Positions 12,769 to 53,394 of a stretch of 64,000 bases of DNA are shown here, piece by piece. The notes below the pieces were generated by a model. That model saw nothing but the letters and a program-made list of their open reading frames with translations, ran no database searches and was not told the DNA's origin. The position numbers and the translations under genes are program-made. Origin of the DNA: Micrococcales bacterium 31B (GTDB taxonomy: Bacteria > Actinomycetota > Actinomycetes > Actinomycetales > Dermabacteraceae); assembly GCA_022803075.1 (NCBI GenBank), contig JAFFTF010000003.1, positions 38,037 through 102,036 of the forward strand, given 5' to 3'. Each line of letters opens with the position of its first letter. Position 1 is the first letter of the stretch.

Positions 12769-12772
12769 CAAA

Positions 12773-12787: not shown

Positions 12788-12813
12788 CACTCGACACGCA
12801 AGGGAGCCGTCGA

Positions 12814-15327: not shown

Positions 15328-15349
15328 TGCGCACCGACACAAGGCAACC

Positions 15350-16246
15350 ATGACTACTTCAGCCCCCACGGCCCCCAGTTTTATCGTCACCTTCACCTGC
15401 CGCGAGCAGCGCGGCATCGTGCACGCCATCACCGGCGTGCTGGTAGAGCACGGCGGCGACATCATCGAACTGAAGCAGTTCGACGACCCCATCAGCGGTC
15501 ACTTCTTCTTTCGCGCACGGTTCGCGCTCGCCACGGACAGTTCACAGGGTGCGACGGAATCCCCCGGCGTGCTGCAGACCCTGCGGGACGATCTCACGGC
15601 TCTCGCGCAGCGCCTCGACGCCGAGTTCTCACTGCGACCCCACGGAGAGAAAGTGAAGACTCTGGTGATGGTGTCGAAATTTGGCCACTGCCTGAACGAC
15701 CTGCTCTACCGCACACGCATGGGTGACATCGACGCTGAGATTGTCGCCGTGGTGTCGAATCACCCCGACCATCGCCAGGTGGTGGAGTGGCACGGGATTC
15801 CCTTCTTTCACGTGCCCGTCACGCCCGACACGAAGCCCGCGGCCGAGGCGAAGCTGCTCGATATTATCGAACGCTTCGAAGTTGATCTCGTGGTGCTAGC
15901 GCGGTACATGCAGGTGCTTTCCGATTCGCTGTCGCGCGCCCTCTCGGGCAAGGCCATCAACATTCACCACTCGTTTTTGCCCTCGTTCAAGGGCGCGAAG
16001 CCGTACCACCAGGCCTGGGAACGTGGCGTGAAGAACGTGGGCGCCACGGCGCATTACGTCAATCACGAACTCGATGAGGGTCCCATCATTGCGCAGCGAG
16101 TGCAGCCCGTCGACCATACCTTCAGCCCGGAGGACCTCGTGGCCGCGGGCCGCGACACCGAGTCGAAGGCCCTCGCGGACGCCGTCACCTGGCACTGCCA
16201 GGCTCGCGTGTTCCTTAACGGCAGCCGCACGGTCGTGCTGCGCTAA
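15350..16246 (+). CDS. purU: Formyltetrahydrofolate deformylase PurU
   Basis: 298 residues. N-terminal ACT domain (TFTCREQRGIVHAITGVLVEHGGDIIELKQFDD) followed by a formyltransferase-fold hydrolase domain. The catalytic Asn-His-Asp set is visible in INIHHSFLPSFKGAKPYHQA and HELDEGPII. It hydrolyses 10-formyl-THF to formate and THF. Next to dimethylglycine oxidase it would regenerate THF from one-carbon units released by demethylation, a pairing well known in betaine and sarcosine loci. It ends before a strong terminator. Confidence 0.92.
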   Translation: MTTSAPTAPSFIVTFTCREQRGIVHAITGVLVEHGGDIIELKQFDDPISGHFFFRARFALATDSSQGATESPGVLQTLRDDLTALAQRLDAEFSLRPHGEKVKTLVMVSKFGHCLNDLLYRTRMGDIDAEIVAVVSNHPDHRQVVEWHGIPFFHVPVTPDTKPAAEAKLLDIIERFEVDLVVLARYMQVLSDSLSRALSGKAINIHHSFLPSFKGAKPYHQAWERGVKNVGATAHYVNHELDEGPIIAQRVQPVDHTFSPEDLVAAGRDTESKALADAVTWHCQARVFLNGSRTVVLR

Positions 16247-16284
16247 GGCCAGCGTCGCTGCCCGCTCTGGGCCGCACACGACAC

Positions 16285-16326
16285 CGGACCGGATCCCAGC
16301 CCCGCGGGGCGGGGGGATCCGGTCCG
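16285..16326. terminator. Strong bidirectional terminator hairpin
   Basis: Perfect 13-base arms (16285-16297 and 16314-16326, core CGGACCGGATCCC) around a 16-base GC-rich loop, followed on the + strand by TTGATTTATTG. It separates purU from the convergent BCCT transporter gene. Confidence 0.8.
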
Positions 16327-16375
16327 TTGATTTATTGTCTGCGATGTCGCGGCACGCGCGCGCCGCGTTCAGCCG

Positions 16376-18328: not shown

Positions 18329-18721
18329 GGGGATTCGGCCCGCGCGTACAGGGGCCGCGCTCCTTACTGCGTGGTGGGTGATTGGTTCGCTGCTTTGCTT
18401 GGCCGGCTAGACGCGCGGGCACGCCGCCGCTGCCTCCATAAAACTCCTTGTGACCAGGTGCCGTGCAGAACCCGGGTGGTGAACTGCGGTAATGCCCTTT
18501 GAGTCTAGTCACATAAAATTCGCGGTGGGTCCGTGAGCGCCATGCCTGCGAGAGCCTCCGCGAGGCCCACGTGGCGAGTTCGCCCCGGTGAGCCGACGGT
18601 CGAGGGGGGAGGCCATTGAGTGCCGCTTCGGCGTGTCGGGGGGCCGGACGCGCGCGTGGCCCGAGGCGCCCCGGCCCGGGCTGGCTGCCAGCCCGGCCAC
18701 CGGGGCGTCCGGAATGCCGAC
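18329..18721. other. Intergenic region between fdhA and the BCCT gene
   Basis: 393 bases with no supported gene. The part near 18330-18500 is the likely promoter and leader of the BCCT gene. The part at 18644-18712 is a large palindromic element (see next entry), probably terminating fdhA. Frames in this stretch are short and lack ribosome sites. Confidence 0.5.
18644..18712. terminator. Nested hairpin bounded by CCGGACGC and GCGTCCGG
   Basis: An outer inverted pair CCGGACGC (18644-18651) and GCGTCCGG (18705-18712) encloses CGCCCCGG/CCGGGGCG (18667-18674, 18700-18707) and a ten-pair inner stem CCGGGCTGGC/GCCAGCCCGG (18676-18685, 18687-18696). It lies just downstream of fdhA. The left arm extends into CCGGACGCGCGCGTGGCCCG, the repeat family consensus. 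Confidence 0.6.
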
Positions 18722-19951
18722 CTACGCGGCCGTAATGAGCCCATGCGGGTCGAGCACGAACTTCTGCGCGGCGCCGCCGTCGAAGGCCGCGTAGCCCTGC
18801 GGCGCATCTTCGAGGGAGATGGGGGTGGCGCGCACGTTCTTTGCGATGCTGACCTTGTCGTGCAGGATCGCCTGCATGAGGCCCCGGTTGTATTTCATGA
18901 CGGGGCACTGACCGGTCACGAAGGTGTGCGATTTGGCGAAGCCGAGGCCGAACCGCATCGAGAGGGAGCCGACCTTAGCGGCTTCATCGACGGCTCCGGG
19001 GTCGCCCGTGACGTACAGGCCGGGGATGCCGAGGCTGCCGCCCGCGCGGGTGATCTGCATGAGCGAGTTCAGCACGGTGGCGGGCTGCTCGGTGGCGGCT
19101 TCCTTGCCGTGGCCGCGGGCCTCGAACCCCACGGCGTCGACGCCGCAGTCGACCTCGGGCACGCCGAGAATCTGTTCGATCTGATCTTGTGGGTCGCCCA
19201 GGTTGAGGTCGACGGTTTCGCAGCCGAAGCTGCGGGCCTGCTCGAGGCGGTCGGCGTTGAGGTCGGCGACGATCACGACGGCGGCGCCCAGCAGGTGAGC
19301 CGAGGTGGCCGCCGCGAGCCCGACGGGGCCGGCGCCCGCGACGTAGACCGTCGAGCCGACGGTGACGCCCGCGCCCACGGCGCCGTGGAACCCGGTCGGG
19401 AAGATGTCGGAGAGCATGGCCAGGTCGAGGATCTTGGCGAGGGCCTGATCGCGGTCGGGGAACTTCAGGACGTTCCAGTCGGCGTAGGGCACGAGCACGT
19501 ATTCTGCCTGCCCACCGACCCAGCCGCCCATGTCGACGTAGCCGTATGCCGAGCCGGGGCGGTCGGGGTTCACGTTGAGACAAATGCCGGTGCGCCGTTC
19601 CTTGCAATTACGACAGCGACCGCACGAAATGTTGAAGGGAACCGAGACAATATCACCGGCCTTGATAAACTCCACGTCGCGGCCGACTTCTACAACTTCT
19701 CCGGTTATTTCGTGACCCAGCACGAGACCCTCGGGCGCGGTCGTGCGACCTCGAACCATGTGCTGGTCAGAGCCGCAGATCTTGGTTGCGATGGTGCGGA
19801 GAATGACTCCGTGATCCACGCGCCTGCCGATATTGGCGGGGTTTACTCCCGGGCCATCTTTCAAAACAAAGTCGGGGTATTCGGTGTCAATGACCGCGAC
19901 CTTACCCGGCCCTGCGTAGCTGACTGCCCTGTTGTTGCTTTTTGCGCTCAT
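18722..19951 (-). CDS. fdhA: Glutathione-independent formaldehyde dehydrogenase
   Basis: 409 residues from the ATG at 19951 (GGAGG upstream). A zinc-dependent medium-chain dehydrogenase: catalytic-zinc residues in ATKICGSDQH and LGHEITG, structural-zinc Cys set in CGRCRNCKERRTGIC, and a Rossmann motif GAGPVGLAAA. The closest known type is Pseudomonas FdhA, which oxidises formaldehyde to formate with bound NAD and without glutathione (segments VDAVGFEARGHG and SGRVTG-like end). In this cluster it removes formaldehyde released by betaine demethylation. Confidence 0.88.
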   Translation of the reverse strand: MSAKSNNRAVSYAGPGKVAVIDTEYPDFVLKDGPGVNPANIGRRVDHGVILRTIATKICGSDQHMVRGRTTAPEGLVLGHEITGEVVEVGRDVEFIKAGDIVSVPFNISCGRCRNCKERRTGICLNVNPDRPGSAYGYVDMGGWVGGQAEYVLVPYADWNVLKFPDRDQALAKILDLAMLSDIFPTGFHGAVGAGVTVGSTVYVAGAGPVGLAAATSAHLLGAAVVIVADLNADRLEQARSFGCETVDLNLGDPQDQIEQILGVPEVDCGVDAVGFEARGHGKEAATEQPATVLNSLMQITRAGGSLGIPGLYVTGDPGAVDEAAKVGSLSMRFGLGFAKSHTFVTGQCPVMKYNRGLMQAILHDKVSIAKNVRATPISLEDAPQGYAAFDGGAAQKFVLDPHGLITAA

Positions 19952-20072
19952 CGTTGAGCCTCCACTCGGCTGAAATACCAGTTGAATACCAAAAGGTAGT
20001 AGGCAGTCTGCTCCTCCTCGGGCCACCTGTCAAGCACCCGAAACGCGCCAGCGGGCCGCCCGAGCGTCCCCC

Positions 20073-21000
20073 TCATTCGCTGAGGCGCTGCTCCAAGAGC
20101 TCGGCCGCCGTCTCCCGCACGAGCCGCAACGACTCCGCCACCAGCGGCGATCCACCACCCCCGCGCCGCACCACCGCCACGATGCGCCGCACCGGCCGAT
20201 GCGGGCCCGCAAGACGCACTCGCGCCACATTGTCGATACCACCCGCGTTCACGAGACGCGGCGCGAGACCCAACCCCAGCCCGGCCCCCACCAGGGCAAT
20301 CGTCGTCTCCCACTCCACCACTTCATGCGCAACCCGCGGGTAGACCCCCCACGGCAGCAAACGCCGAGGTGAACAGGTCGTGATAGGGCGAACCGGCCGC
20401 CGCGGTCACCCACTCCTCACCCGCAAGGTCTTCGAGCCGCAACGACTCCGCCGCGGCCAGGGGGTGATCGAGCGGCATCATGACATCCAGCGGATCGTCG
20501 AGCAGGGCAATGCGCTCGAAACGCGCATCGGCCTCGGAGCGCGGCGAGCGGTGGGTCTCGACGATCAGGGCCAGGTCGATCGCCTCAGCGACCAGCAGGT
20601 CCAAGCATCGCGCCGGGTCCGCCTCCACCACGTGAACGCGCAGGTCCGGATGCTCGCCGCGCAGATGCGCCGCGAGCGGCGCCAGCAGATTCGAGGCCGC
20701 GGTCGAGAACCCGCCGATGCCAAATCGCGTCTGCGTCTCACGCCCCTCCGTGAGCGCAGCCGCTTTGAGCCGCTCCCACTCGGCGACGAGCGCATCGGAA
20801 TGATCCACCAGGTACTGCCCCGCCACCGTGAGCCGCAGGTTGCGACCATCGCGCACCAAAAGCGTCATACCCAGCGCTCTTTGCAACTCCTTGAGCTGCG
20901 CCGACACCGCCGATGCAGAGTAGCCCGTGAGGCTCGCCGTCGCCGCGACGGTGCCAGATACCGCGAACGCCCGCAGGGTCGCGAGCCGCTCGTCGATCAT
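20073..21000 (-). pseudogene. LysR-family regulator, frameshifted in a C6/G6 tract
   Basis: A LysR regulator split across two frames. The first frame (ATG at 21000) encodes the winged helix (MIDERLATLRAFAVSGTVAATASLTGYSASAVSAQLKELQ) and most of the effector domain up to FTSAFAAVGG, then stops at 20323. The second frame (to 20073) continues correctly as VYPRVAHEVVEWETTIALVGAGLGLGLAPRLV. Removing one base from the six-C run at 20345-20350 restores a full ~308-residue protein. It is divergent from gbcA and would be its regulator. Either a true +1 mutation or a homopolymer sequencing error. Confidence 0.75.
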
Positions 21001-21176
21001 GCGGAGTTCCCGCACATAATTAGCCAGATAGTTGTGCTTTTCATGTCCACCCCAGCGCACCTAAGATTCAAACAGAACCCTCAGTGTCTGGCAGCGCCGC
21101 CACGTCGTGCAAGGTTTTCATCATTTCGGCGCCAAGCCCCCTCGCGACACTTGCCCCCTCGTGACCGGAGTGCCCC

Positions 21177-22463
21177 TTGACCCTCACCGCGAACCCGCGC
21201 ACCCCTTCTCGCATCTCGCGCGAAACCCATGCCCACCTGAGTGAATTACTCGGACGCCGCCGGCCCGGCTATTCGCTCGAGGCCCCGTTTTACACCGACC
21301 CCGGGGTATTCGACGCCGACATGGAGGCCATCTTCGGCCAGCAGTGGATCTTCGCCGCAAGCCTCGCCGAGGTTCCCGAACCCGGCGACTACGTGACGCT
21401 CGACATCGGGCCGTACGCCATCGCACTCGTGCGCACCGACGACGGCGGGGTGAACGCACTGCACAACGTGTGTCGACATCGCGGCGCGCGCGTGCTCACC
21501 GAAGCCCGCGGCTCGACCGGCAACCTCGTGTGCGGGTACCACTCGTGGACGTACTCGCCGGACGGCCAACTGTTGCACGCGGCGTCCGCGCCCGGAGAAA
21601 AAATCGACAAGGCCTGCTTCGCATTGCGTCGCGCCCACTGTCGAGTGGTCGCGGGCCTCATCTTCGTGTGCTTCGCCGCCGAGCCGCCCGCCGATTTCGA
21701 CGCGATGAGCCAAATCATCGAGCCTTACCTCGCGCCCCACGACCTCGGGGCCACCAAGGTCGCCTACCAGCAGAACATCGTCGAAGAAGGCAACTGGAAG
21801 CTCGTGATGGAGAACAATCGCGAGTGTTACCACTGCGATGGGCACCCCGAACTCGCATGCTCGCTGTTCCCCACCTGGGGGCTCACCGAAGCGACCGTGC
21901 CGCCCCACCTCGAAGCCGTGTGGCAGCGCAACACGCAGGCGCAGCAGGACCTCGAATACCGGTGCGAACGATACGGCCTGCCCCACGCCGTGATCGAGCA
22001 GCTCGACACGAGAGTGGCGGGTTTTCGCATCTCGCGCGAGGCCCTCGACGGCGACGGAGAGTCGTTTTCTGAAAGTGGGCGCCGACTGTCGAAGAAACTG
22101 CTGGGCGACCTGCGCGACTTCAGGCTCGGCCGCTGCTCCCTGCATCTGCAACCCAACAGCTGGTTTCACCTGCTCGGCGACCATGCGATCACGTTCGCCG
22201 CGATTCCCCTGAACGCGCATCAGACCCTCGTGCGCACGACCTGGCTCGTCGCCGACGATGCCGTCGAGGGCGTGGACTACACGCTCGACGAACTCACGCA
22301 CGTGTGGAAGCAAACCAACCTACAAGACCAGAATTTCGTCGAGATGTGCCAGCGGGGGGCGGCGAGCCCGGCCTACGCGCAGGGGCCATACATGGCGAGC
22401 GAGTATCAGGTGGAGATGTTTATCGGGTGGTACGTGCAGCGCATGCAGGAGCACCTCGCGTGA
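21177..22463 (+). CDS. gbcA: Glycine betaine demethylase oxygenase component (Rieske), GbcA
   Basis: 428 residues from a TTG start with GGAG seven bases upstream; no ATG or GTG is available in this frame nearby. The Rieske cluster is CRHRGARVL...CGYHSW and the mononuclear-iron region is ENNRECYHCDGHPELACSLFPTW, the pattern of GbcA-type oxygenases. With GbcB it converts glycine betaine to dimethylglycine and formaldehyde. Stachydrine demethylase is a close alternative, but the local dimethylglycine oxidase, formaldehyde dehydrogenase and BCCT gene favour betaine. It overlaps gbcB by four bases (GTGA). Confidence 0.85.
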   Translation: MTLTANPRTPSRISRETHAHLSELLGRRRPGYSLEAPFYTDPGVFDADMEAIFGQQWIFAASLAEVPEPGDYVTLDIGPYAIALVRTDDGGVNALHNVCRHRGARVLTEARGSTGNLVCGYHSWTYSPDGQLLHAASAPGEKIDKACFALRRAHCRVVAGLIFVCFAAEPPADFDAMSQIIEPYLAPHDLGATKVAYQQNIVEEGNWKLVMENNRECYHCDGHPELACSLFPTWGLTEATVPPHLEAVWQRNTQAQQDLEYRCERYGLPHAVIEQLDTRVAGFRISREALDGDGESFSESGRRLSKKLLGDLRDFRLGRCSLHLQPNSWFHLLGDHAITFAAIPLNAHQTLVRTTWLVADDAVEGVDYTLDELTHVWKQTNLQDQNFVEMCQRGAASPAYAQGPYMASEYQVEMFIGWYVQRMQEHLA

Positions 22464-23695
22464 CGAGCCTTCATGACGGGGGCGCGGCGGGCGGCGCAGC
22501 GGGGGGCGCGGCCTTGCGGGGGCTCACGATGCCGTGGCACAGGCTCGGGCCCGAGGGCCCCTTCGCGCCCTCGTTCCCGCAGGAGTTTCTCGCCGAGTGC
22601 GTGGGCCGCCAGGCCGAAACCCCCGACCTCGTGACGTTCACCTTTCGTCGCAGTGACGGGCTGCCGCTCGCGTTCCGCGCGGGGCAGTATGTCAACGTGG
22701 CGTTCCCGGTGCATGGCAGCGGCGCCGAAGCGGTGGACCGAAGTTACTCCCTGTCGAGTGCGGCGACCTCACCCTGGACGTTTTCGATCAGCATCAAGCG
22801 AGACCCCGAGGGCCTCGTGTCACGCTGGGCGCACGACGCGCTGCATCCCGGCGCCGTGCTTGAGATGATCGGCCCGGTCGGGTCGTTCCACCTGCCCGAC
22901 CGCGACCGCCGCGGCCGGTATCTGCTGCTCGCCGCGGGGGCGGGAATCACGCCGCTGATCTCGATGCTGCGCACGCTGCATGCGTTGCCGGGCCGCACCG
23001 AAGCCGTGCTGCTCTACCACGCCTCAGCGCCCGAGGATTTCGCGTTTAGGGCCGAACTCGATTACCTGGCCGCCGTCGATTCGCGTATCGCGGTGCACTA
23101 CTCACTCGGCGACGGCCCCGCCCCCGCAGCGTGGGCGGGTTTCACGGGTCGGCTCAGCGCCGAGCGGATCGACGAGATCGCACCCGACGCCAACGTCAGG
23201 CAGGTGTTCGCGTGCGGGCCCGAGGGCTACCTCGCGGCACTAGATTCAGTGCTTGCTGAGTGCCGCATTGACCCTTCCGACACCCACACCGAGCGCTTCA
23301 CGAGCGACACCCAGACCGAGCCCGTCGACGCACCGGCCCACCCGGAGCCCTCCTACGCACCGCCAGCAGCTGATGGGCCAGAGCCACATCCGACCGTAGT
23401 GAGCACCGACGGGTTCGAAACGTTCGGCACCGGCTCCCTCGCCATGACGTTCCTGCGCAGCCGCAAGCAGGTGCGCCTTGAACCCGGTGACCGCATGCTG
23501 CCCGCAGCGCTGCGAGCGGGCGTGCGCATCGGCATGAATTGTCAAGAGGGCATGTGCGGCTCGTGCAAAGTCACTAAGGTGCAAGGAGAGGTCGAGATGC
23601 ACCACCAGGGCGGCATCCGCGCCCGCGAGATTGCAGCCGGCAAGTTTCTGCCGTGCTGCTCCACCCCCCTCACCGACGTCGTCGTGGACGCGTAA
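22460..23695 (+). CDS. gbcB: Glycine betaine demethylase reductase component, GbcB
   Basis: 411 residues from the GTG at 22460, which overlaps the gbcA stop. An FAD domain (FRAGQYVNVAFP, RSYSLSSA), an NAD domain (LLAAGAGITPLISMLRTL, VFACGPEGYL) and a C-terminal plant-type [2Fe-2S] ferredoxin (CQEGMCGSCKV...CC) are in the usual order. A 60-residue acidic linker rich in Thr, Pro and Glu (about residues 275-330) joins the last two and is longer than usual. It passes electrons from NAD(P)H to GbcA. Confidence 0.88.
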   Translation: MTSLHDGGAAGGAAGGAALRGLTMPWHRLGPEGPFAPSFPQEFLAECVGRQAETPDLVTFTFRRSDGLPLAFRAGQYVNVAFPVHGSGAEAVDRSYSLSSAATSPWTFSISIKRDPEGLVSRWAHDALHPGAVLEMIGPVGSFHLPDRDRRGRYLLLAAGAGITPLISMLRTLHALPGRTEAVLLYHASAPEDFAFRAELDYLAAVDSRIAVHYSLGDGPAPAAWAGFTGRLSAERIDEIAPDANVRQVFACGPEGYLAALDSVLAECRIDPSDTHTERFTSDTQTEPVDAPAHPEPSYAPPAADGPEPHPTVVSTDGFETFGTGSLAMTFLRSRKQVRLEPGDRMLPAALRAGVRIGMNCQEGMCGSCKVTKVQGEVEMHHQGGIRAREIAAGKFLPCCSTPLTDVVVDA

Positions 23696-23718
23696 TCGGG
23701 GCGGAGGCGGCAAAGAGG

Positions 23719-35960: not shown

Positions 35961-36665
35961 CTATTCAGCCGCAGCCTCGGGTCGCGCAATCCGGTACCGA
36001 AACACCACCACCGACCCGCAGGGACGCACGTCGCGCAGGGTCGCGGCCAGGTGGCGTCCGTCGAGATGACGCAACGCGGGCACAATCGACGGCGCCGCCG
36101 GGTCGCCCAAGCGCCACGGCGCGACCGCCCACTGCAGTTCATCGGCGACCCCCTCCGCGAGGGCGGCAGCAAGGGTCGCCGCGCCTCCCTCAATCATGAG
36201 GCGCCGGACGCCCCGGGTGGCCAGGTTGGCTGCGATCGCGCCGAGCGTGAGTGGCCCGCTCACACTCACCACCTGTGCGCCACGACCCAGCTCGCGGGCG
36301 AGCCCCTCGGCATGCGGCGCGGAAGTAAACACGAGGGGTGCCCCCACGCCCTCCTCGCGCGTGGTGAATAGGTGGGCCCGCGCCGACAGTCCACCCGATC
36401 GCGTAAACGTCACCCGCAGGGGTGACGCGGCAAGGCCCCGCGCGACCCGCTCGGCCCGGAGCCGCGGGTCGCGCACGAGGAGACGCGGGTTGTCGGCGCG
36501 AACCGTGCCAGGCCCCACCAAGATGGCGTCGCAGGCTGCCCGCTCGGCGTCCACGCGGGCGAGGTCCGCGGCGTCCGAAATGACGAGGCGCGTGGGGCTC
36601 GAATCGTCGAGGGCACCATCGAGGGTGGTCGCGCACGACAGCACCACTTGGGGCCGGTCAACCAT
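35961..36665 (-). CDS. RibD C-terminal-domain (pyrimidine reductase-like) protein
   Basis: 234 residues from the ATG at 36665. A stand-alone reductase domain of the RibD/DHFR fold: PQVVLSCATTLDGALDD at the start, CDAILVGPGTVRADNPRLLVR, and MIEGGAATLAAALAEGVADEL. In riboflavin synthesis this domain reduces the ribosylamino-pyrimidinone made by GTP cyclohydrolase II. Here it is the last gene of a compact operon and overlaps the upstream membrane protein gene by eight bases, so it is probably committed to that pathway rather than to riboflavin. Confidence 0.82.
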   Translation of the reverse strand: MVDRPQVVLSCATTLDGALDDSSPTRLVISDAADLARVDAERAACDAILVGPGTVRADNPRLLVRDPRLRAERVARGLAASPLRVTFTRSGGLSARAHLFTTREEGVGAPLVFTSAPHAEGLARELGRGAQVVSVSGPLTLGAIAANLATRGVRRLMIEGGAATLAAALAEGVADELQWAVAPWRLGDPAAPSIVPALRHLDGRHLAATLRDVRPCGSVVVFRYRIARPEAAAE

Positions 36666-37554
36666 GACTGCCCTCGCGGGGCCGCGCGAAAAGACTCTGG
36701 GGCAGCCACGTGAGCACCCCCGGCGCGAGGGCAATCGTGCCCAGCACACCGAACGCGACGGAGACTGCGAGCGCATCGGGCGCGCTCAGCCCGAGGTGCG
36801 TGCCCGCCCACACCGCGACGCCCTCGCGCGGACCCCAGCCGGCCACGTTGATCGGAATCGCCGCGCCCGCGAGCACCAGAGCGGCCAGCACGATGAGGTG
36901 CGCGTCGAGGGGCCGGCCGGTCACGGTCATGGCCACAGCCACAAAGATTGCGGCGTGCGACAGAACCACCAGGGCCGACGTGCCACCCACCCTCGACAGG
37001 TCATCCCGGCGCACGTACCCGCGGCTCACCGCGCACCACCCCGCCAGGGTCACGGCGAGCAGCCCGGCGGCGGTCAGTAGCGCCGCCGCGCCCGCGGCGG
37101 GGCGCCACGGCGAGGGCAGCCACGCCAACGCGACGAGCGTCAACGCGGCCTGCACCACCTGCCCCAGCACGCGTTCGACGATCACCACCCGGGCCCGGGT
37201 GCGCAACGTCGTGGAGGCCGCATGCCTGTCATCGACGGCGCGGTTGACATCGCCGACGATGCCGCCCGGCACGGTCGCGTTCAGTAGTTGCGAGCGATAG
37301 CACGCCGCGACGGCGACGCCCACTGGCAGGTGTAAGCCCGCGGCGCTCGCCACGAGCGACCAGCGTAACGCCGCGGCGCACGTCGCCACGAAGGTCACGA
37401 CCAGCGCAAACGTCGGCAGGGCCGTGCCAGTTGCGGTGCCGGTGAGCCGCGCCCACGCGGTGCCCCACGTCTCCGTGCCCGCAAAGCGCACGACAGCCAC
37501 GAGCACCAGTACGCCCAGCACTCCCTGCAGCAGCGCCCGCAGGTTGCCGCGCAT
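36658..37554 (-). CDS. LPG-synthase-like (UPF0104/AglD) integral membrane protein
   Basis: 298 residues from the ATG at 37554, which overlaps the glycosyltransferase stop (TGATG). About seven or eight membrane helices; the family signature CYRSQLLNATVPGGIVGDVNRAV...RVVIVERVLGQVVQ and the later PINVAGWGPREGVAVW identify the lysylphosphatidylglycerol synthase TM region family (PF03706), seen in MprF and AglD. It lacks any soluble synthase domain. Probably flips or transfers a lipid-linked product. Confidence 0.85.
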   Translation of the reverse strand: MRGNLRALLQGVLGVLVLVAVVRFAGTETWGTAWARLTGTATGTALPTFALVVTFVATCAAALRWSLVASAAGLHLPVGVAVAACYRSQLLNATVPGGIVGDVNRAVDDRHAASTTLRTRARVVIVERVLGQVVQAALTLVALAWLPSPWRPAAGAAALLTAAGLLAVTLAGWCAVSRGYVRRDDLSRVGGTSALVVLSHAAIFVAVAMTVTGRPLDAHLIVLAALVLAGAAIPINVAGWGPREGVAVWAGTHLGLSAPDALAVSVAFGVLGTIALAPGVLTWLPQSLFARPREGSHG

Positions 37555-38609
37555 CACGCGACCCCCGCGAGCGGTTCGGCGACGGCCTGCTCCCATTGCG
37601 CGCCGACGGCCGACCACGGAGTCAACGTCTCGCGCCGCGCCATTGCGCGCTCGCGCAATTCGGTGCGCAGGGACGCCCGCGTGAGCCAGTCGCGGAGGGC
37701 GCCAGCGAGTGCCGCAGTGCTGGCGGGCCGAACGAGCGTCCCGGGGGTCTGGCCGGAGGCCACCGTGCCGAGAGCCTCGGGGAGGCCCCCGAGTCGCGGT
37801 GCGAGGACGGGGATGCCCCGCGCGAGGGCCTCGCCGACCACCATGCCGTAGGTTTCGAAGCGCGACGCCACGACCAGCAGGTCGGCCTTGTCGTAGGCCG
37901 CGTGCAGTTTCGCCCCCGCGAGGGCGCCGCGGATGCGCACGCGCTCGGCCATGCCTGCCCTTTCGCACGCGGCGCGCAGCTCGGTCACGTACTCGGGTTC
38001 GATGTCGGGCGCACCCACGACCTCCCAGGTCCAGCCGAGGTCGGTGCACCGGGCGAGCGCGGCGGCGATGAGGTCTTGGCCCTTGAGGCTTGTCACGGCA
38101 CCGACCGTGAGCAGCCTCGCTCCGCCCGGGCTAGGCCGCACCGGCGGCGCGGCGTCCACGCCGGGCCGGATCACGCTGATTGTCGAGCGAACCAGCCACG
38201 GGTAGCGTTCCAGCAGCAGTTCGCGGCTCCACGCGCTGGTCACGACCACCCGAGTGGCATCGCGTAGGGCAGCGGTTTCGGACGCCGTGTGGGCCGGTTC
38301 TAAGGGCATGTGAACCAGCAGCGTGAGGGCGAGTCGGTCGGACTGCTCGAGCAGAACCTCACCCGCCGCGGCTCCCACGAGGCCGTCGACGATGACCGCG
38401 CCGCCGTCGGGGCAGCACAGCAGGGATGCCCGCAACCGGGCCCGGTCGGTGGGTTGCGGGTGGGGCCACGCGCCGGCCACATCGTGGCGAGTGACGTCAT
38501 GACCGCGCGCCGCGAGTTCGGCGGCGATGCGCAGGTCGTACACGTTGCCGCCGCTAGGGCGGCGCGGGTCCGCGATGCCAGCGGGGACGATCAGGGCAAC
38601 GCGGCTCAT
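37554..38609 (-). CDS. Family-4-type glycosyltransferase
   Basis: 351 residues from the ATG at 38609, overlapping the upstream pterin-synthase-like gene by four bases. A GT-B glycosyltransferase: N-terminal acceptor domain with GGNVYDLRIAAELAARGHDV, donor domain with LLTVGAVTSLKGQDLIAAAL and the EX7E-type motif in SRFETYGMVVGEALARGIPVLAPRLGGLPE. Cytoplasmic, no signal. It likely adds a sugar to the product of the two upstream enzymes; donor and acceptor unknown. Confidence 0.87.
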   Translation of the reverse strand: MSRVALIVPAGIADPRRPSGGNVYDLRIAAELAARGHDVTRHDVAGAWPHPQPTDRARLRASLLCCPDGGAVIVDGLVGAAAGEVLLEQSDRLALTLLVHMPLEPAHTASETAALRDATRVVVTSAWSRELLLERYPWLVRSTISVIRPGVDAAPPVRPSPGGARLLTVGAVTSLKGQDLIAAALARCTDLGWTWEVVGAPDIEPEYVTELRAACERAGMAERVRIRGALAGAKLHAAYDKADLLVVASRFETYGMVVGEALARGIPVLAPRLGGLPEALGTVASGQTPGTLVRPASTAALAGALRDWLTRASLRTELRERAMARRETLTPWSAVGAQWEQAVAEPLAGVA

Positions 38610-38998
38610 GGCGTCCGCCGATAGCTGGCCCATGCCACGGGAGATTCGCGCAGCGTGACCTCGAGGTCGTCCACCGCCGCAGAGCCCAGCTGGCCCGCGG
38701 CCAGGGCGGCGGCGAGGCGGTCCGCGATCACGCGGCACAGCACCTCGGTGGTGGTGTTGACACCCGCGAGCGTGGGGTCGTCGTCCAGATTGCGGTGGCT
38801 GAAGCCGCCCACGATGTCGCCGAGCAGCGCGCCGGCGCGGCCGATGTCGAGCACGATGCCGTTCTCGTCCAACTCGCGCGCGCGGAAGGTGGCCTCGACC
38901 ACGTACGTGGCGCCGTGCAAGGCCTGCGCGGGGCCAAAGATCTCACCCCGCAGGCTGTGGGCGATGAGCATATGGCTTTGGACGGTGACTGCGTACAC
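38606..38998 (-). CDS. Divergent 6-pyruvoyl-tetrahydropterin synthase / QueD-like protein
   Basis: 130 residues from the GTG at 38998, one base after the dehydrogenase stop with GGGAG upstream. The fold is that of PTPS/QueD: IAHSL, FGPAQALHGATYVVEATF, LDIGRAGALLGDIVGGFSHRNLDD, NTTTEVLCRVIADRL, and VTLRESPVAW with the conserved Glu. Compared with QueD, the catalytic Cys is Ala and the zinc motif His-Gly-His reads His-Gly-Ala, so one of three zinc ligands and the Cys are missing. It may use another mechanism or substrate. Confidence 0.82.
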   Translation of the reverse strand: MYAVTVQSHMLIAHSLRGEIFGPAQALHGATYVVEATFRARELDENGIVLDIGRAGALLGDIVGGFSHRNLDDDPTLAGVNTTTEVLCRVIADRLAAALAAGQLGSAAVDDLEVTLRESPVAWASYRRTP

Positions 38999-38999
38999 G

Positions 39000-39977
39000 T
39001 TAGGCTCCCGGCGGGTAGGTGATGGTGTGACAGAGGGCGGGCTGCTCGCCCGAGGCGAGTCGGGGCAGCAGGTCTGGTAGATCGGCGAACGGGCTCGAAC
39101 CCGTGAGTAGGAGGTCGAACGCGGGGTCATCGAGCAACCTGAGGGCGAGTTCGAGACGGTCGCGGAACGTGCGGCGGGCGGCCCGTGCGGGTGCGATGGT
39201 GCCGACCTGGCTCGAACGAATGTGAAGTCGGGAAGAATGGTAGGTGCCGCCGAGCCGCAGCGAGACGTCCCCGTCACCGTACCAGCTGAGGTCGATCACG
39301 GTGCCCTCCGGGCCGAGGGTGTCGAGCGCGGTTTGGAGGCCCGTGGAGGTCGCGCTCGCATGGAACGTGAGGTCGAGGCCCGATGGCGCCGCGCCGGGCA
39401 GCGCGAAGTCGGCGCCGAGCGCCCGCGCGATGGGTTCGCGGCTGGGGTCCACGTCGACCACGGTGACCTCAATGCCCGGGATGCCGACGAGCAGTCGGGC
39501 CACGGCGAGGCCAATCATGCCCGCGCCGACGACGGCGACGCGGTCGCCAATGCGGGGGCCCGCGTCCCACAGCGCGTTGACGGCGGTCTCGACGGCGCCC
39601 GCGAGCACCGCCCGGGGGGCGGGCACCTGTGCGGGCACGGGCACGACGGCGTCGGCGGGCACCACGAATGCCGTGTGATGGGGGTGCAGGCAGAATACGG
39701 TCTGACCCAGCAAATCGGGCTCGCCCGCCTCGACGCGGCCGACGCTCAGATAGCCGTAGCTGACGGGGCCCGAAAACTCGCCTCGCTGGAACGGCGCCCG
39801 CATGCGGTCGTGCTGATCTGCGGGCACGCGACCCGAAAAGACCAGGGTCTCGGTGCCGCGGCTGACCCCCGACACGAGCGTGCGGACGCGCACCTCGCCG
39901 GGGCCGGGCTCGGGCACATCCATGGAGCGAATCTCGCCGACCCCGGGGCTCGCCACCCAAAAGGCCTGTTCTCGCAT
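39000..39977 (-). CDS. Zinc-type medium-chain dehydrogenase
   Basis: 325 residues from the ATG at 39977 (GGAGG upstream); first gene of the operon. MDR fold: RTLVSGVSRGTETLVFSGRVP, CLHPHHTAFVVPADAV, VETAVNALWDAGPRIGDRVAVVGAGMIGLAVARLL (NAD(P)-binding), and STGLQTALDTLGPEGTVIDLSWYGD. The usual Cys-His zinc ligands at the catalytic site are not obvious (SGVSRGTE replaces the CGSD-like motif), so the true cofactor use is uncertain. Likely oxidises or reduces a side chain on the pterin-like or sugar intermediate. Confidence 0.82.
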   Translation of the reverse strand: MREQAFWVASPGVGEIRSMDVPEPGPGEVRVRTLVSGVSRGTETLVFSGRVPADQHDRMRAPFQRGEFSGPVSYGYLSVGRVEAGEPDLLGQTVFCLHPHHTAFVVPADAVVPVPAQVPAPRAVLAGAVETAVNALWDAGPRIGDRVAVVGAGMIGLAVARLLVGIPGIEVTVVDVDPSREPIARALGADFALPGAAPSGLDLTFHASATSTGLQTALDTLGPEGTVIDLSWYGDGDVSLRLGGTYHSSRLHIRSSQVGTIAPARAARRTFRDRLELALRLLDDPAFDLLLTGSSPFADLPDLLPRLASGEQPALCHTITYPPGA

Positions 39978-40049
39978 GAACCTTAACCTCCTCGCGCTCG
40001 TGCTTATGGTGTACGTGTTCGACACCCTATATACGGAGGCACGCGGCGC
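39978..40049. promoter_or_regulatory. Divergent promoter region of the pterin-like cluster
   Basis: The 72-base gap holds GGAGG sites for both flanking genes and a dyad-like GTGTACGTGTTCGACAC (40011-40027) followed by TATATA. Both operons probably share control here. Confidence 0.45.
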
Positions 40050-42356
40050 ATGGTTCAGATGCTCGCTATGCAACGTGCGTTCAATTATGCAAACGCCGTG
40101 ACCACGGTGCGCGCGGTGCTCGTTGTGGCCCTCATCGTGCCGCTGTTTCAGTGGTTGACGGCCGCCGAGGCTGACCCCGGTCGCACCTCGGGGGTGCCCC
40201 TCGCGGTCGCGCTCGTGGCCCTGCTTGCAGTTGCGCTCGACGGCGTTGACGGCTGGGTGGCGCGACGCCTGCACTGCGTGACCGAGTTCGGTGCCCGCTA
40301 CGACATGGAGGTTGACGCCGCGCTGATCCTGCTGCTCTGCCTCCCCGCCGCGCGGCTGCTGGGGGGTTGGGTACTGCTGATCGGCTTCGCGCGCTACCTC
40401 TGGATCTTTCTCACCGTGTTGTTTCCGCGTCTCGCGACGCCCGTGCCCTCCCATCGCTGGCGCAAAGCGGTGGCCGTCCTGCAGGCGCTCGCGTTGGTGG
40501 TAGCCATCGCCGAGATCACCCCGCGCGCTGCGGCGGTGACGCTGCTCGCGGGGGCGCTCGCGGCGCTCGCGTTGTCGTTTGGAACGCAGGCCATCGAGGC
40601 GCTGCGACTCTCGCGGGGTGCGGTGCCAGCGCGGGGTGCGGCGCGAACGGGTGCGGCGGTGCCAACGCGGGCCGAGGTGCCAGGGCGGGCCTCCGAGGCG
40701 TCCGAAATAACGACCGAAATAACTGTCAGTAAGGGGGCCGCGAAGCCAGCCGGTTGGCGCACGGGCATCGCCGTGGCGCTGCTGTGGGCGGTGTTCACGT
40801 GGCCGCGCTCGGGGCCGCTCACGGTCGATGCTCTGCTGCGCGTGCCGGCCGAGGCGCTCGCCCTCGGCGTCGTGGCCGTGTGGCTGCCACTGCCCCGTGG
40901 TCGCTGGGGCCGCGGGATCGCGCGGGGCGGCGCCCTGATCGTGGGGCTCGCGCTGACCGTCGTCGTACTGCTGCACGGCCTCGACTTCGGCTTTAGCCAG
41001 GCCTTTGATCGGCCCTTCGACGCGCGCAGCGACTACGGGTACGCGCAGTCTGCGTTCGACCTGCTGGGAGATGCGGTGGGGCGCGCGGGCGCGATCGCCC
41101 TGCTGGCCGTGGGGGCGCTCGCGGTGGCGGCGCTCGCGTGGGCGCTCACCTGGTCAGTGCTCCATGTGGCGAGCCTGCTGGCGACCCGCCGCGAGCGCGG
41201 GCGGCCCGTGGTGGCGATCGCGGCGGCGGCCTGGCTCGTGGTGTTCGCGGGCTCGGTCACCCCGGTCCCGGGCCTGCCGGTGGCCAGCCACTCGACCGTC
41301 AACCTCGTCGCGGACCACGTGGGTCGCTGGACCGCCGCCGCCACCGACGAACGCACCTTCGGCCGCGTGATTGAGGCCGACCCGGCGGCGCGCGAGCCCG
41401 CCACGGCGCTGGTCGGGGGCCTCGCGGGCACCGACGTGCTGGTCATTTTCGTGGAGAGTTACGGTCGCGTCGCGCTGGAGGACTCGCCGGTCGCCGCGAC
41501 CGTCGGCCGCACCCTCGACGCGTCGACCGCGACCCTCGCCGACCACGGCTACGCGTCGCGCAGCGGCTACCTCACGTCACCCACGTTCGGCGGGCTCAGC
41601 TGGCTCGCGCACGCCACCCTGCACACGGGCCTGCCGGTGACCTCGCAGCGCCGCTACGACCAACTGCTGGCCACGCGGCATTCCACGCTGACGGGCATTT
41701 TTGCGGACGCCGGGTGGCGCACCGTCTGCGTTGACCCCGCCAACCGCTCCCCTTGGCCGCCCGCCCGCGAGTTCTATCGCTGCGACGCGGTCTACGATGC
41801 GACCTCGCTCGGCTATGAGGGGCCCCGGCTCGGGTACCCGTCCGTTCCCGACCAATTCACGCTGCACGCCTTCGCGCAGCGCGAGCTCACTCCCGGCCAC
41901 GCGCCCGTCATGGCGGCCGTCGACCTCGTCTCGAGCCACACTCCGTGGAGCCCGATCCCGCCCATGCTGCCCGTCTCGGCGCTGGGCGACGGCAGCATCT
42001 ATGGTCGCTTGGACCTCTCGGGCAGCAAGGTCGCAGACGTGCATGACGCGGCGCAGGAGACCGAGGGGTACGGCCGCGGCATTCGCTACAGTCTCGAGGC
42101 CGTGACGCAGTTTCTCGCCGACCTCGACGACCCCAACCTCGTGGTCGTCATGCTGGGCGATCACCAGCCCAACGCGCTCGTGTCGGGCGAGGGCGCGAGC
42201 CGCGACGTACCCGTCTCGATCATCGCGAGCGATCCCGCGCAGCTCGACCGCATCGCCGGGTGGGGCTGGTCGAGCGGGTTGCGGCCCGCCCCGGACGCTC
42301 CGGTGGTGCCGATGGCAGCGTTCCGCGAGCGGTTCTTTGAGGCGTACGGGGGCTGA
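40050..42356 (+). CDS. CDP-alcohol phosphatidyltransferase fused to a sulfatase-fold domain
   Basis: 768 residues. Residues ~10-190 form a CDP-alcohol phosphatidyltransferase with the full motif DGxxAR...GxxxDxxxD (LDGVDGWVARRLHCVTEFGARYDMEVD) and several helices. A linker (~190-230) leads to about four more helices, then a sulfatase/alkaline-phosphatase-fold domain (~455-768) with VIFVESYGR, the nucleophile region YLTSPTFGGLSW, VDLVSSHTPW and the metal motif GDHQP. The C-terminal part resembles phosphoglycerol transferases (LtaS-like). GGAGG lies nine bases before the ATG. It would make and then modify or use a lipid-linked phospho-alcohol at the membrane. Confidence 0.85.
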   Translation: MVQMLAMQRAFNYANAVTTVRAVLVVALIVPLFQWLTAAEADPGRTSGVPLAVALVALLAVALDGVDGWVARRLHCVTEFGARYDMEVDAALILLLCLPAARLLGGWVLLIGFARYLWIFLTVLFPRLATPVPSHRWRKAVAVLQALALVVAIAEITPRAAAVTLLAGALAALALSFGTQAIEALRLSRGAVPARGAARTGAAVPTRAEVPGRASEASEITTEITVSKGAAKPAGWRTGIAVALLWAVFTWPRSGPLTVDALLRVPAEALALGVVAVWLPLPRGRWGRGIARGGALIVGLALTVVVLLHGLDFGFSQAFDRPFDARSDYGYAQSAFDLLGDAVGRAGAIALLAVGALAVAALAWALTWSVLHVASLLATRRERGRPVVAIAAAAWLVVFAGSVTPVPGLPVASHSTVNLVADHVGRWTAAATDERTFGRVIEADPAAREPATALVGGLAGTDVLVIFVESYGRVALEDSPVAATVGRTLDASTATLADHGYASRSGYLTSPTFGGLSWLAHATLHTGLPVTSQRRYDQLLATRHSTLTGIFADAGWRTVCVDPANRSPWPPAREFYRCDAVYDATSLGYEGPRLGYPSVPDQFTLHAFAQRELTPGHAPVMAAVDLVSSHTPWSPIPPMLPVSALGDGSIYGRLDLSGSKVADVHDAAQETEGYGRGIRYSLEAVTQFLADLDDPNLVVVMLGDHQPNALVSGEGASRDVPVSIIASDPAQLDRIAGWGWSSGLRPAPDAPVVPMAAFRERFFEAYGG

Positions 42357-42408: not shown

Positions 42409-43110
42409 TCAGGTGCTGAGGCTCAGCACCACGTCACCGTCGGCGGCGACCACCTCGACGCGAGCGATGTCGGCGCGGTCAGTGGCGGTCGCGCCTGCGA
42501 GGCTCATGGTGTGGCCGGGCAGGCCCTTCCACGTGGCCACCCGCTCCGTGGCACCCGCGAGGGTGTGCACCACGAGCGAGTAGGTTTGATTGTCAGACGC
42601 CGCGTCGCTGCCGACCGGATACTCGCAGTTGAGGTCGAGCCGGGTTCCCCGCGCCACGGTAGTAAGTGAGAGATTGCCGGTCACCCCGTACGACTCCCCC
42701 GCGGCCATGGTTTGGGGGGCGGCGCCGACCACGGCCGGTGTCTGGCCCGAGGCAGGGGCGTGGCTTTGGCCCACGGCGTAGCCCAGCCCGCCCACCAGCG
42801 CGACACTCGCCGCGAGGCCCAGCGCCGTCACGAGTAGGCGCCGACGTCGCTCGAGGCGGACGGTGGCGAGCAGCGCGGGCAGCACGGCGGTCGGTACGGC
42901 GGGGGGCGCGGGGGTCTCAGGGTCGGCGTCGAGGAGTTCGAGTTCCTTCGCGTCGACGCGCGCCAGCAGACCCGTGAGACCGGCCAGCTCTCCGATGGCG
43001 GCGCGGCACGCCTCGCAGCCGGGCAGGTGGTCTTCAAATTCGCGCCGCTCGGCCGGGCTGAGGGCACCCAGGAGGTATGCCGCATCGTGGTGGGCGAGGG
43101 GACATTTCAT
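42409..43110 (-). CDS. Anti-sigma factor, zinc-finger (RskA-like)
   Basis: 233 residues from the ATG at 43110, overlapping the sigma stop by four bases. N-terminal anti-sigma zinc finger (LAHHDAAYLLGALSPAERREFEDHLPGCEAC, HxxxCxxC), a single membrane helix (LLVTALGLAASVALVGGLGYAVG), then an extracellular domain (~115-233) like the RskA/DUF domain. It should bind and inhibit the ECF sigma factor and release it on an outside signal. Confidence 0.9.
   Translation of the reverse strand: MKCPLAHHDAAYLLGALSPAERREFEDHLPGCEACRAAIGELAGLTGLLARVDAKELELLDADPETPAPPAVPTAVLPALLATVRLERRRRLLVTALGLAASVALVGGLGYAVGQSHAPASGQTPAVVGAAPQTMAAGESYGVTGNLSLTTVARGTRLDLNCEYPVGSDAASDNQTYSLVVHTLAGATERVATWKGLPGHTMSLAGATATDRADIARVEVVAADGDVVLSLST
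42412..42430. terminator. Palindrome at the anti-sigma gene end
   Basis: Nine-base arms GGTGCTGAG/CTCAGCACC around one base cover the last codons of the anti-sigma gene. On the - strand GGTTTTTG-type bases follow some distance downstream. It may serve as a terminator between this gene and the convergent fusion gene. Confidence 0.45.
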
Positions 43111-43619
43111 GAGGTCACGCCCTCTTCGGCGAGAGTGAGTCGGAGCGCGCGCAGGGCATAGTGGGCGCGCGACTTCACGGTGCCCTCGGGAATCCCGAGC
43201 CGAATGGCGGTCTCGGCGACGGAGGAGCCTCGGTAATAGCATTCGAGCACTACGCTGCGACGTTCAGGGCTGAGGTCGCGCAGGGCATCGGCGACAACCC
43301 ACGCCTGCAAGACCCGGTCGACCTCGTCGGCGTCGTGGGCTCGGTCGGGCACGTCCGCGACGGTGAGTTCGCTCTGGGCGCGCCGGGTACGCCACTCGTC
43401 GATCACGAGATTTCGAGCCACGGTGAATAACCACGACCTCACGGAGCCCTGAGACTCAGAGAGCTTGCTTTGATGCTTCCACGCGCGAATCAGGGTGTCT
43501 TGCACGATGTCCTGCGCATGGGCGTCGTCGTTGCCGGTCAGGCGCAGGCAGTACCGCCACAGCGCCGCGGCGTGCTCGTCATGCAATTGCTGCACGAGCA
43601 GGGTGGGGTCGATATTCAC
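43107..43619 (-). CDS. ECF-type RNA polymerase sigma factor
   Basis: 170 residues if the GTG at 43619 is used: AGGAGG lies five bases before it, whereas the GTG at 43625 overlaps the ribosome site. Sigma region 2 (EHAAALWRYCLRLTGNDDAHAQDIVQDTLIRAWKH) and region 4 (LRDLSPERRSVVLECYYRGSSVAETAIRLGIPEGTVKSRAHYALRALR) are complete. The layout resembles SigK/SigL-type pairs with a co-encoded RskA-like anti-sigma factor. Confidence 0.92.
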   Translation of the reverse strand: MNIDPTLLVQQLHDEHAAALWRYCLRLTGNDDAHAQDIVQDTLIRAWKHQSKLSESQGSVRSWLFTVARNLVIDEWRTRRAQSELTVADVPDRAHDADEVDRVLQAWVVADALRDLSPERRSVVLECYYRGSSVAETAIRLGIPEGTVKSRAHYALRALRLTLAEEGVTS

Positions 43620-43676
43620 GTTCACCTCCTGACCTGTATACGGCCGCTGAGCCCCGGCGGTTCACCGGGCGCCCCC

Positions 43677-51735: not shown

Positions 51736-53394
51736 ATGACGAACCATCCGCACCACGCGAACCATCCGCACCACGCGGCCAACCCGCCCGATTCGGCCAA
51801 CCCGCCCGGCGCGGCGTCCCACCGCACGATCACCCGCTATGCCGACGTCGCGATCATTGGTGGCTCCGCGGCCGGCCTCGCAACCGCCCTGCAAGTCTCT
51901 CGCCAGCTGAGATCGGTGATTGTGATCGACTCCGGCGAACCGCGCAACGCTCCCGCCTCGTCAATGCACAGCTACCTCGGCCACGAGGGGCGCTCCCCCG
52001 CGGGCCTCCTCGAGATCGCGCGCGCCGAGGTTCGCTCTTACGGCGCCGAGGTCCTGACCGGGCGCGCCACCCGCATCACCCGCACCGAGACCGGCTTTCG
52101 CATAGAACTGACCGGGGGCCACGAACTGCACGCGCGGCGCGTTGTCGCGGCCACGGGCCAGCGCGACGAATTGCCCGAGATTTCCGGCCTCGCCCAACAC
52201 TGGGGCGCGTCGGTAATTCACTGCCCGTTCTGCCACGGCTACGAGGCCCGCGACGGCCGCATCGTCGCCCTCATCACGTCGCCCCAGGGCCTCCACGCGG
52301 TGCCCCTGCTGCGCTCCTTGACGCAGCGACTCACCGTCGTCGTGCATGCCGGCGTGCCCGCCGACGACCCGGAACTCGCCACGTTCGCTGCGGCGGGCAT
52401 CCGGGTGATCGCTACACCCGTGCGGCGCGTCCGCAGCGACTCCGCGGGCAGGCTACGCGCGCTTGAGCTGACCGACGGCACCGAGGTGGAGGCCGACACC
52501 ATTCTCGTGGGCACCCGCCTGCATGCGAGGGCGGACGCCCTGGCCGGCGTTGGCCTCGTCGCCACCGAACACCCCAGCGGCGTGGCAACGTACATCGAGG
52601 CCGACGCCGTCACCGGCCTCACCGCCGCGCCCCACGTGTACGCCGTCGGAACCCTCGTCGAGCCGATGCTGCAGGTGCTGCCAAGCGCGGCCGCCGGCAC
52701 GCGAGTGGGGGCGATGGTGAGCGCCGACCTCGCCCGCGAGGACCTCGAGGCCGCCGCCCGCCCCGTCGCCCATGCCGCCGATTGGGACCATCGCTATAGC
52801 GGTGACCTGCAATGGAGCGGAAACCCCAACGGCTCGCTCGTGGCCGAGGTCTCGGGCCTCACCCCGGGCACAGCCCTCGACATCGGAGCGGGAGAGGGCG
52901 GAGACGCCATCTGGCTCGCGGAACACGGCTGGCGAGTCACGGCGAACGACATCTCTCAGCAGGCGCTGCTTAAGATTCGCGAGGTCGCGCGACGGCGGTC
53001 GGTGCCGGTCGAGACCCTCCTGGCGGATGCGAACGCGGCCGACCCCTTCGGCGGCGCCCGTTTCGACCTGGTGACGGCGGCGTATGCGTCGATCCCGCGC
53101 ACCCCCGACTCCCGCGGAATCGAGAACTTTCTGCGTGCCGTGGCGCCGGGCGGCCGCCTGCTGCTGATTAATCACGACCTGAGCGATATGGGCGCGGTGC
53201 TAGCGGGCGCGGGCGGCGACGCCACCCGCCCCTTCGACCACGAGGCGTTCGTCGACACCGACGCCTTCGCGGCGGCGCTGCAGGCCTCGCCCGACTGGGA
53301 AATCGAGGTGCACGAACGTCGCGAGCGCTCCGCTGGAGCGGCCTCGGGCCACCACGTTCGTGACGTCGTGCTACGCGCCCGCCGAATCGCCTAG
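51736..53394 (+). CDS. Fused thioredoxin-reductase-like oxidoreductase and SAM methyltransferase
   Basis: 552 residues. An N-terminal low-complexity tract of repeated NHPHHA units leads to a pyridine-nucleotide oxidoreductase: FAD motif IIGGSAAGLAT (40-50), redox pair C163-P-F-C166 (IHCPFCHGYE) and a Gly-Thr-Arg FAD-closing segment near 310. From ~350 a class I methyltransferase follows (motif I ALDIGAGEGGDAIWLAEHG, 380-398; FDLVTAAYASIPR; APGGRLLLINHD). This fusion is found in many actinobacteria. It may detoxify a thiol- or metalloid-type compound by reduction then methylation (inference). Confidence 0.85.
   Translation: MTNHPHHANHPHHAANPPDSANPPGAASHRTITRYADVAIIGGSAAGLATALQVSRQLRSVIVIDSGEPRNAPASSMHSYLGHEGRSPAGLLEIARAEVRSYGAEVLTGRATRITRTETGFRIELTGGHELHARRVVAATGQRDELPEISGLAQHWGASVIHCPFCHGYEARDGRIVALITSPQGLHAVPLLRSLTQRLTVVVHAGVPADDPELATFAAAGIRVIATPVRRVRSDSAGRLRALELTDGTEVEADTILVGTRLHARADALAGVGLVATEHPSGVATYIEADAVTGLTAAPHVYAVGTLVEPMLQVLPSAAAGTRVGAMVSADLAREDLEAAARPVAHAADWDHRYSGDLQWSGNPNGSLVAEVSGLTPGTALDIGAGEGGDAIWLAEHGWRVTANDISQQALLKIREVARRRSVPVETLLADANAADPFGGARFDLVTAAYASIPRTPDSRGIENFLRAVAPGGRLLLINHDLSDMGAVLAGAGGDATRPFDHEAFVDTDAFAAALQASPDWEIEVHERRERSAGAASGHHVRDVVLRARRIA

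Follow-up and report, generated by a model that had tools for sequence, protein, structure and literature searches.

Six genes in a 64,000-nucleotide stretch of the Micrococcales bacterium 31B genome (assembly GCA_022803075.1, contig JAFFTF010000003.1, positions 38,037 to 102,036; hereafter the window) are, on the evidence of gene neighbourhoods in other genomes, one copy of a widespread actinobacterial cluster. They encode a RibD_C-type reductase, a membrane protein of the LPG_synthase_TM family (LPG-TM), a GT4 family glycosyltransferase, a PTPS-IV protein, a dehydrogenase of the MDR fold and a CDP-alcohol transferase fused to an LtaS-like domain. The cluster would divert GTP into an envelope-associated product, in a four-step explanation that we consider about equally likely to stand or to fall as a whole.

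Conservation and organization of the cluster

Two sets of loci were compared with the window. For set 1, one genome per species was scanned with a two-sequence PTPS profile, which yielded at least 587 relatives, and the best 80 loci were kept; some of these slices are short contigs. Set 2 consisted of 58 loci that came from searching whole genomes within the same order and class. The sets are largely separate and not fully independent: the MDR proteins of loci L057 and L126 are identical, and at least one genome is apparently common to both. Near the PTPS-like gene, the 80 loci of set 1 carried genes for the MDR protein in 77 cases, GT4 in 79, LPG-TM in 76 and the CDP-transferase in 73, along with a methyltransferase (68), RibD_C (63), GTP cyclohydrolase II (GCH2; 60), the LtaS-like domain (38) and a creatininase (15). 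All 58 loci of set 2 had the MDR and GT4 genes, and the remaining families were found in 50 (LPG-TM), 50 (CDP-transferase), 47 (methyltransferase), 44 (GCH2), 31 (creatininase), 21 (RibD_C) and 18 (LtaS-like domain). Because the neighbourhood is conserved in other actinobacterial families, chance adjacency is excluded. Co-occurrence in other genomes had been set beforehand as the test able to refute a common role for the six families; the neighbourhood was kept in the 80 loci and in the second set of 58, and the functional unit proposed in a preliminary description of the window thus recurs elsewhere.

The PTPS-IV gene was present in 57 of 395 sampled genomes of the class (~14%), representing 26 of 138 genera. 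Two main layouts were seen: GCH2 was accompanied by RibD_C in one, and in the other a different GCH2 was accompanied by a creatininase. Clusters of Microbacterium and Smaragdicoccus also had no linked GTP cyclohydrolase. A solitary PTPS-IV gene with no cluster partners nearby was found in Streptomyces brasiliensis (L074:9998-10390), and its neighbours (metallo-beta-lactamase, YbaB-like and glucosaminidase pieces) gave no functional clue. In Nocardioides ungokensis (L058:10369-13139) the GT4 and RibD_C matches were in pieces, as if frameshifted by sequencing error or decay. Several creatininase-type clusters (family f102; L153, L161, L169 and L174) had some of their genes set apart by a few kb of extra DNA, as between the GT4 and methyltransferase genes or between those for MDR and PTPS.

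All six open reading frames listed in the preliminary description were present in the window, and each family was seen by Pfam. On the - strand lie the genes for the RibD_C-type reductase (35961-36665; PF01872, 107 bits), the integral membrane LPG_synthase_TM protein (36658-37554; PF03706, 69.8 bits, aa 12-275 of 298), the retaining GT4 glycosyltransferase (37554-38609; PF13692/PF00534), the PTPS-IV protein of SCO6650/3D7J type (38606-38998; PF01242, 89 bits), which starts with GTG at 38998, and the BchC-like MDR dehydrogenase (39000-39977), whose ADH_zinc_N match of 24.5 bits was weak and below the Pfam cut-off. These five genes are translationally coupled, joined by overlaps of 8, 1 and 4 nt and one 1-nt gap (base 38999), and the coupled unit described earlier was thereby confirmed. 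Across a divergent intergenic region of 72 bp (39978-40049), in which no sigma-70-type consensus promoter was found, the + strand encodes the two-domain membrane protein that joins the CDP-alcohol transferase to the sulfatase-family domain (40050-42356; PF01066, 57 bits; PF00884, 33 bits).

Immediately downstream of the fusion gene and running towards it are genes for an extracytoplasmic function (ECF) sigma factor (43107-43625, - strand) and an adjoining zf-HC2 anti-sigma protein, the two occupying 42409-43625. Elsewhere in the window, the open reading frames at 11200-23700, judged by reading them, probably serve betaine catabolism, with genes for a dimethylglycine oxidase-like protein, a PurU-like protein, a BCCT transporter, a formaldehyde dehydrogenase-like protein and a Rieske oxygenase. 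A 552-aa open reading frame at 51736-53394 appears to join a thioredoxin-reductase-like domain to a C-terminal S-adenosylmethionine (SAM)-methyltransferase-like domain.

No PTPS-IV gene was found in 24 genomes of the same family as strain 31B (the host), and in the MDR tree the window protein fell beside Intrasporangiaceae (Tetrasphaera, Knoellia and Nostocoides) in a set of four rows. Together these two results suggest horizontal acquisition of the cluster by the host. Base composition was also considered as proof of transfer and was rejected as weak: GC content was 72.2% versus 65.8%, yet the third-position GC content (GC3) overlapped that of the neighbouring genes.

Predicted entry of GTP into the pathway

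In GCH2 of E. coli, Tyr105 lies near the ring-opening site. The same Tyr was seen in the alignment in the host's own RibBA (L082). In set 1, the equivalent of Tyr105 was kept in 45 of 45 clusters that lack a creatininase, and Met, His or Gln replaced it in 15 of 15 clusters that bear one. In set 2 it was lost in all 31 clusters with a creatininase and kept in 12 of the 13 without (11 by alignment, and L094 by eye from the translation). The lone apparent exception, L165, has Leu at this position; the only creatininase in its genome is ~4 kb past the slice, at 10 kb from the LPG-TM gene, and L165 thus follows the rule as well. Over both sets the rule covers 104 loci with no real exception.

SCO6655 of Streptomyces coelicolor, which we take to have Met at the Tyr105 position, presumably stops at the formyl intermediate FAPy. 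Since the Tyr is lost exactly where a creatininase is present, the obvious reading would be that the Tyr-less GCH2 makes FAPy and that the cluster creatininase is a FAPy deformylase which finishes the reaction. A creatininase-family formamidase, BrbF of Sinorhizobium, has been proven to deformylate the FAPy intermediate (PMC9478397). When compared with the existing sequence models for FAPy deformylases (ArfB/BrbF), the creatininases of the relatives scored below the cut-off.

The creatininase-type GCH2s form one clade (support 97/81). The creatininase-less GCH2s make up another clade, with 55 members, and those of L094 and L176 branch outside both clades. Judged from these sequences, the cluster seems to have acquired the ring-opening step on more than one occasion, an argument that the GCH2 product is required by the pathway. 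Entry of the cluster from GTP to a diamino-ribosylamino-pyrimidinone phosphate (DARoPP) is accordingly given here as a well-supported prediction. The GTP cyclohydrolase, creatininase and methyltransferase that the preliminary description had expected were all found in the clusters of relatives and none in that of the window; since these partners sit there, its proposal of a GTP-derived pyrimidine or pterin as the substrate is very likely.

Predicted functions of the encoded proteins

The RibD_C protein (234 aa) scored far above the PF01872 cut-off of 24.1 bits and has no deaminase or other domain. Its best PDB matches were 5xv5/5xux, which we take to be archaeal Rib7, and 6p8c, an entry named DARoPP reductase. 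Against the TIGR01508 equivalog it scored 94.6 of the required 186.45 bits, making it a relative and not an orthologue by that model, and it departs from its family at no fewer than 12 otherwise conserved positions. In two divergent versions of the cluster, single open reading frames (L094:12499-14562 and L176:11094-12614) encode GCH2 with RibD_C behind it and lack a deaminase domain. The likely activity of the RibD_C protein is to reduce DARoPP, without deamination, to its ribityl form.

The window PTPS protein matched PDB 3d7j (SCO6650) with E=5e-43 and 58% identity. It carries the motif FGPAQ, invariant in 26 sequences and given as the PTPS-IV signature in PMC5445326. Of the two families in the neighbourhood of the PTPS-IV subfamily (COG0720), PF00925 and PF01872, RibD_C was found in the window, and GCH2 was linked in relatives only and unlinked in the host. 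With residue positions taken from QueD, the position of the nucleophilic Cys was Ala in 151 of 151 aligned PTPS-IV sequences, and that of the third zinc His was Ala in 150, the window protein included in both cases; the two other zinc His were kept in 151. The Glu that anchors the 2-amino-4-oxo ring of pterins was kept in 152 of 152. Because the catalytic Cys and one zinc His have been lost, PTPS-IV is unlikely to be active as a PTPS, and the active pterin synthase of the preliminary description is not borne out; because the anchoring Glu has been kept, binding of a 2-amino-4-oxo ring is likely.

The MDR protein reached 36 bits against TIGR01202 (BchC), below the cut-off. In place of the catalytic zinc motifs GxCGTD and GHE it has SRGTE and YGYL, which are conserved in the 134-sequence family alignment; with the catalytic zinc ligands absent, its sequence is not that of a zinc-dependent alcohol dehydrogenase. 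The best PDB matches of the GT4 protein were the predicted glycosyltransferases 3c4q/3c48, which we take to be MshA, and the usual paired Glu (E252...E260) is kept in the family alignment. The LPG-TM protein (298 aa) consists of the flippase-like membrane part only. It had been described as a membrane transferase, a role left without support by the absence of the C-terminal aminoacyl-tRNA transferase domain that is found in MprF and other true LPG synthases.

The N-terminal domain of the fusion protein (aa 11-167; DGVDGWVAR...G...D...D) is a CDP-alcohol phosphatidyltransferase with the motif DxxDGxxAR...GxxxDxxxD (DGVDGWVARRLHCVTEFGARYDMEVD), the motif residues being invariant in 24 sequences. 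For its AlphaFold model (pLDDT 84), the best Foldseek match was PgsA 7drk, a phosphatidylglycerophosphate synthase (TM-score 0.64/0.71), ahead of the phosphatidylinositol phosphate (PIP) synthases. Enzymes like PgsA take a polyol-phosphate as acceptor along with CDP-diacylglycerol (CDP-DAG), and by analogy the predicted intermediate, with its ribityl phosphate, fits this acceptor class. The model of the C-terminal extracytoplasmic domain (pLDDT 89) gave LtaP/LtaS 4uop/4uor as best Foldseek matches, and also matched GacH and the EptA/MCR transferases. The residues of the LtaS/EptA site, Thr275, Glu232, Asp467-His468 and His393 in segment numbering, were invariant in 21 sequences; their roles as nucleophile and in metal binding, within the alkaline-phosphatase superfamily, were assigned by motif, and the fold by Foldseek on the AlphaFold model. 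As modelled, the domain resembles a phospho-transferase of predicted LtaS/EptA type. The families and both folds agree with the glycosylation and the membrane linkage or transport put forward in the preliminary description, and the product itself stays a prediction.

Proposed pathway, alternatives and significance

In the proposed pathway, GTP would be opened to 2,5-diamino-6-(5-phosphoribosylamino)pyrimidin-4-one (DARoPP), in relatives either by a Tyr-type GCH2 alone or by a Tyr-less GCH2 stopping at FAPy together with a creatininase-family deformylase. The RibD_C reductase would then, without deaminating the ring, turn the ribosyl group into a ribityl chain, a step which has support. With its conserved Glu, PTPS-IV may grip the 2-amino-4-oxo-pyrimidine or a pterin, and oxidation or isomerisation of a side-chain alcohol may fall to the zinc-less MDR protein. 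In the last step the PgsA-like domain would couple the polyol-phosphate to lipid from CDP-DAG, GT4 would add a sugar, the LPG-TM protein would flip the lipid, and the LtaS-like domain would move or cleave the phospho-headgroup outside. The overall logic would be like that leading from phosphatidylinositol to phosphatidylinositol mannosides (PIM), with a GTP-derived polyol replacing inositol. We infer that a lipid-linked, glycosylated product is made or displayed at the envelope. That this product represents an unrecognised class of actinobacterial envelope lipid, with a glycosylated GTP-derived ribityl-pyrimidine or pterin headgroup moved outside the cell and two alternative entry modules supplying the same intermediate, is a tentative proposal, possible rather than probable.

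Several observations weigh against this pathway. The window cluster has no GCH2, methyltransferase or creatininase. The host has two unlinked GCH2s, a standalone enzyme on contig C26 and a RibBA on contig C1, which both have the Tyr, group together and are of the riboflavin type; the standalone enzyme was considered as a cluster-type GCH2 and rejected, as it groups with the host RibBA and not with the cluster clade. GTP cyclohydrolase I is also present in the genome. With no GTP cyclohydrolase linked to the cluster, the host must rely for the entry step on the unlinked cyclohydrolases of its general housekeeping metabolism, and the same may apply to the Microbacterium and Smaragdicoccus clusters. 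The host's own creatininase was rejected as the deformylase, being in a different, GntR-linked neighbourhood and 32% identical to the cluster type. No match to the cluster-type methyltransferase was found in the host genome, in a search run without a positive control. The creatininase-type GCH2s being one clade, the cases behind the Tyr rule are not independent, and a single evolutionary event, or a few, may account for it. Most creatininase-type clusters have no RibD gene, so the reduction is either not universal or done elsewhere. The LtaS-like domain is missing in many clusters, and the acceptors of this domain and of the CDP-transferase cannot be read from sequence.

The lack of RibD in most creatininase-type clusters would also suit a soluble pterin glycoside, formed by Amadori rearrangement and ring closure of DARoPP, handling by PTPS-IV, glycosylation by GT4 and export, with the CDP-transferase acting on something else. 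Cyanobacteria make glycosylated pterins with a PTPS and a glycosyltransferase, and the PTPS fold here has an invariant pterin-anchoring Glu. Such a product is nevertheless rather unlikely: without the catalytic Cys and third zinc His, PTPS-IV is not an ordinary PTPS, the GCH2-RibD fusions imply a reduced ribityl chain that is unable to close to a pterin in that way, and the CDP-transferase and flippase-like genes are near-constant partners. These membrane-lipid genes, as part of the core, also speak against a diffusible antimetabolite like toxoflavin or roseoflavin made from a riboflavin precursor, even though toxoflavin synthesis starts with GCH2, a RibD-type reductase and a methyltransferase. 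The methyltransferase is absent from the window cluster and from other clusters, and a conserved core whose PTPS-IV gene is found in about one in seven sampled genomes of the class suits a widely retained trait better than an antibiotic of sporadic occurrence; we regard this explanation as improbable.

Coenzyme F420 shares the ribityl-aminopyrimidine precursor, and it is very improbable that the cluster serves its synthesis, as the core is made of lipid-type genes and no known F420 families (FbiA-D/Cof) were among the recurring PTPS-IV neighbours, no search aimed at F420 having been made. A role of PTPS-IV in F420 synthesis has been claimed for archaea, in an unpublished remark (PMC5041015). 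GCH2 and RibD_C are riboflavin families, as a spare riboflavin pathway would require; this has still less to recommend it, given that the host has a separate riboflavin-type locus on contig C1 (ribD and ribBA ~2 kb apart), that lumazine and riboflavin synthases were not found among the conserved neighbours examined, and that the cluster reductase has no deaminase domain. Finally, that the genes are unrelated neighbours with separate roles, an explanation for which no point was found, is refuted by linkage across actinobacterial families, the GCH2-RibD fusions and translational coupling, and its probability is close to nil.

The cluster has partial counterparts among known systems. SCO6650 of S. 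coelicolor (3D7J) is the PTPS-IV protein 58% identical to that of the window, and SCO6655, presumably a Met-type GCH2 from the same region, would match the creatininase-type clusters. Both have reportedly been studied biochemically. The window cluster differs in that it is laid out without a creatininase, has RibD_C and the LtaS-like domain, and has no linked GTP cyclohydrolase. Phosphatidylinositol/PIM assembly of the PgsA type has in common the CDP-DAG:polyol-phosphate transferase fold, a GT4 and a membrane step, whereas the cluster's acceptor is predicted to be GTP-derived and an LtaS-like domain is fused to the CDP-transferase. The entry to riboflavin of the archaeal (ArfA-ArfB-ArfC) or BrbF type (PMC9478397) likewise runs from GTP through a formyl-pyrimidine to DARoPP, with a formamidase of the creatininase family, and goes on to a reductase that acts without prior deamination; the actinobacterial cluster, in contrast, is tied to lipid and sugar genes and not to riboflavin genes, and its first enzyme has the GCH2 fold.

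In the literature reached, only fragments of the whole cluster were found, with nothing beyond PMC5445326 and PMC5041015. The AGeNNT study (PMC5445326), in its accessible part, shares with our results the FGPAQ motif and the neighbours PF00925 (labelled FolE2) and PF01872; that part names no MDR, GT4, LPG-TM, CDP/LtaS, methyltransferase or creatininase genes, no residue rule and no fusions. The term "uncharacterised" in the preliminary description is nearly right, the exceptions being the occurrence of GTP cyclohydrolase and RibD_C next to PTPS-IV, which the AGeNNT study had already noted, and the reported biochemical work on SCO6650 and SCO6655. The PTPS-IV structure and the PF00925/PF01872 neighbourhood are already known. 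As far as our searches and sequence comparisons reach, what is new is the complete set of genes in its two layouts, the GCH2 residue rule and the GCH2-RibD_C fusions.

The cluster supplies a pathway context for 3D7J, a PTPS-IV structure that has been solved but has had no function, and the GCH2 residue rule predicts a function for a group of creatininase-family proteins. The presence of the marker gene in such a share of the sampled class genomes implies that current maps lack a metabolite of some importance. Should the product indeed be a lipid with a pterin or pyrimidine, it would add a new kind of component to those known from membranes.

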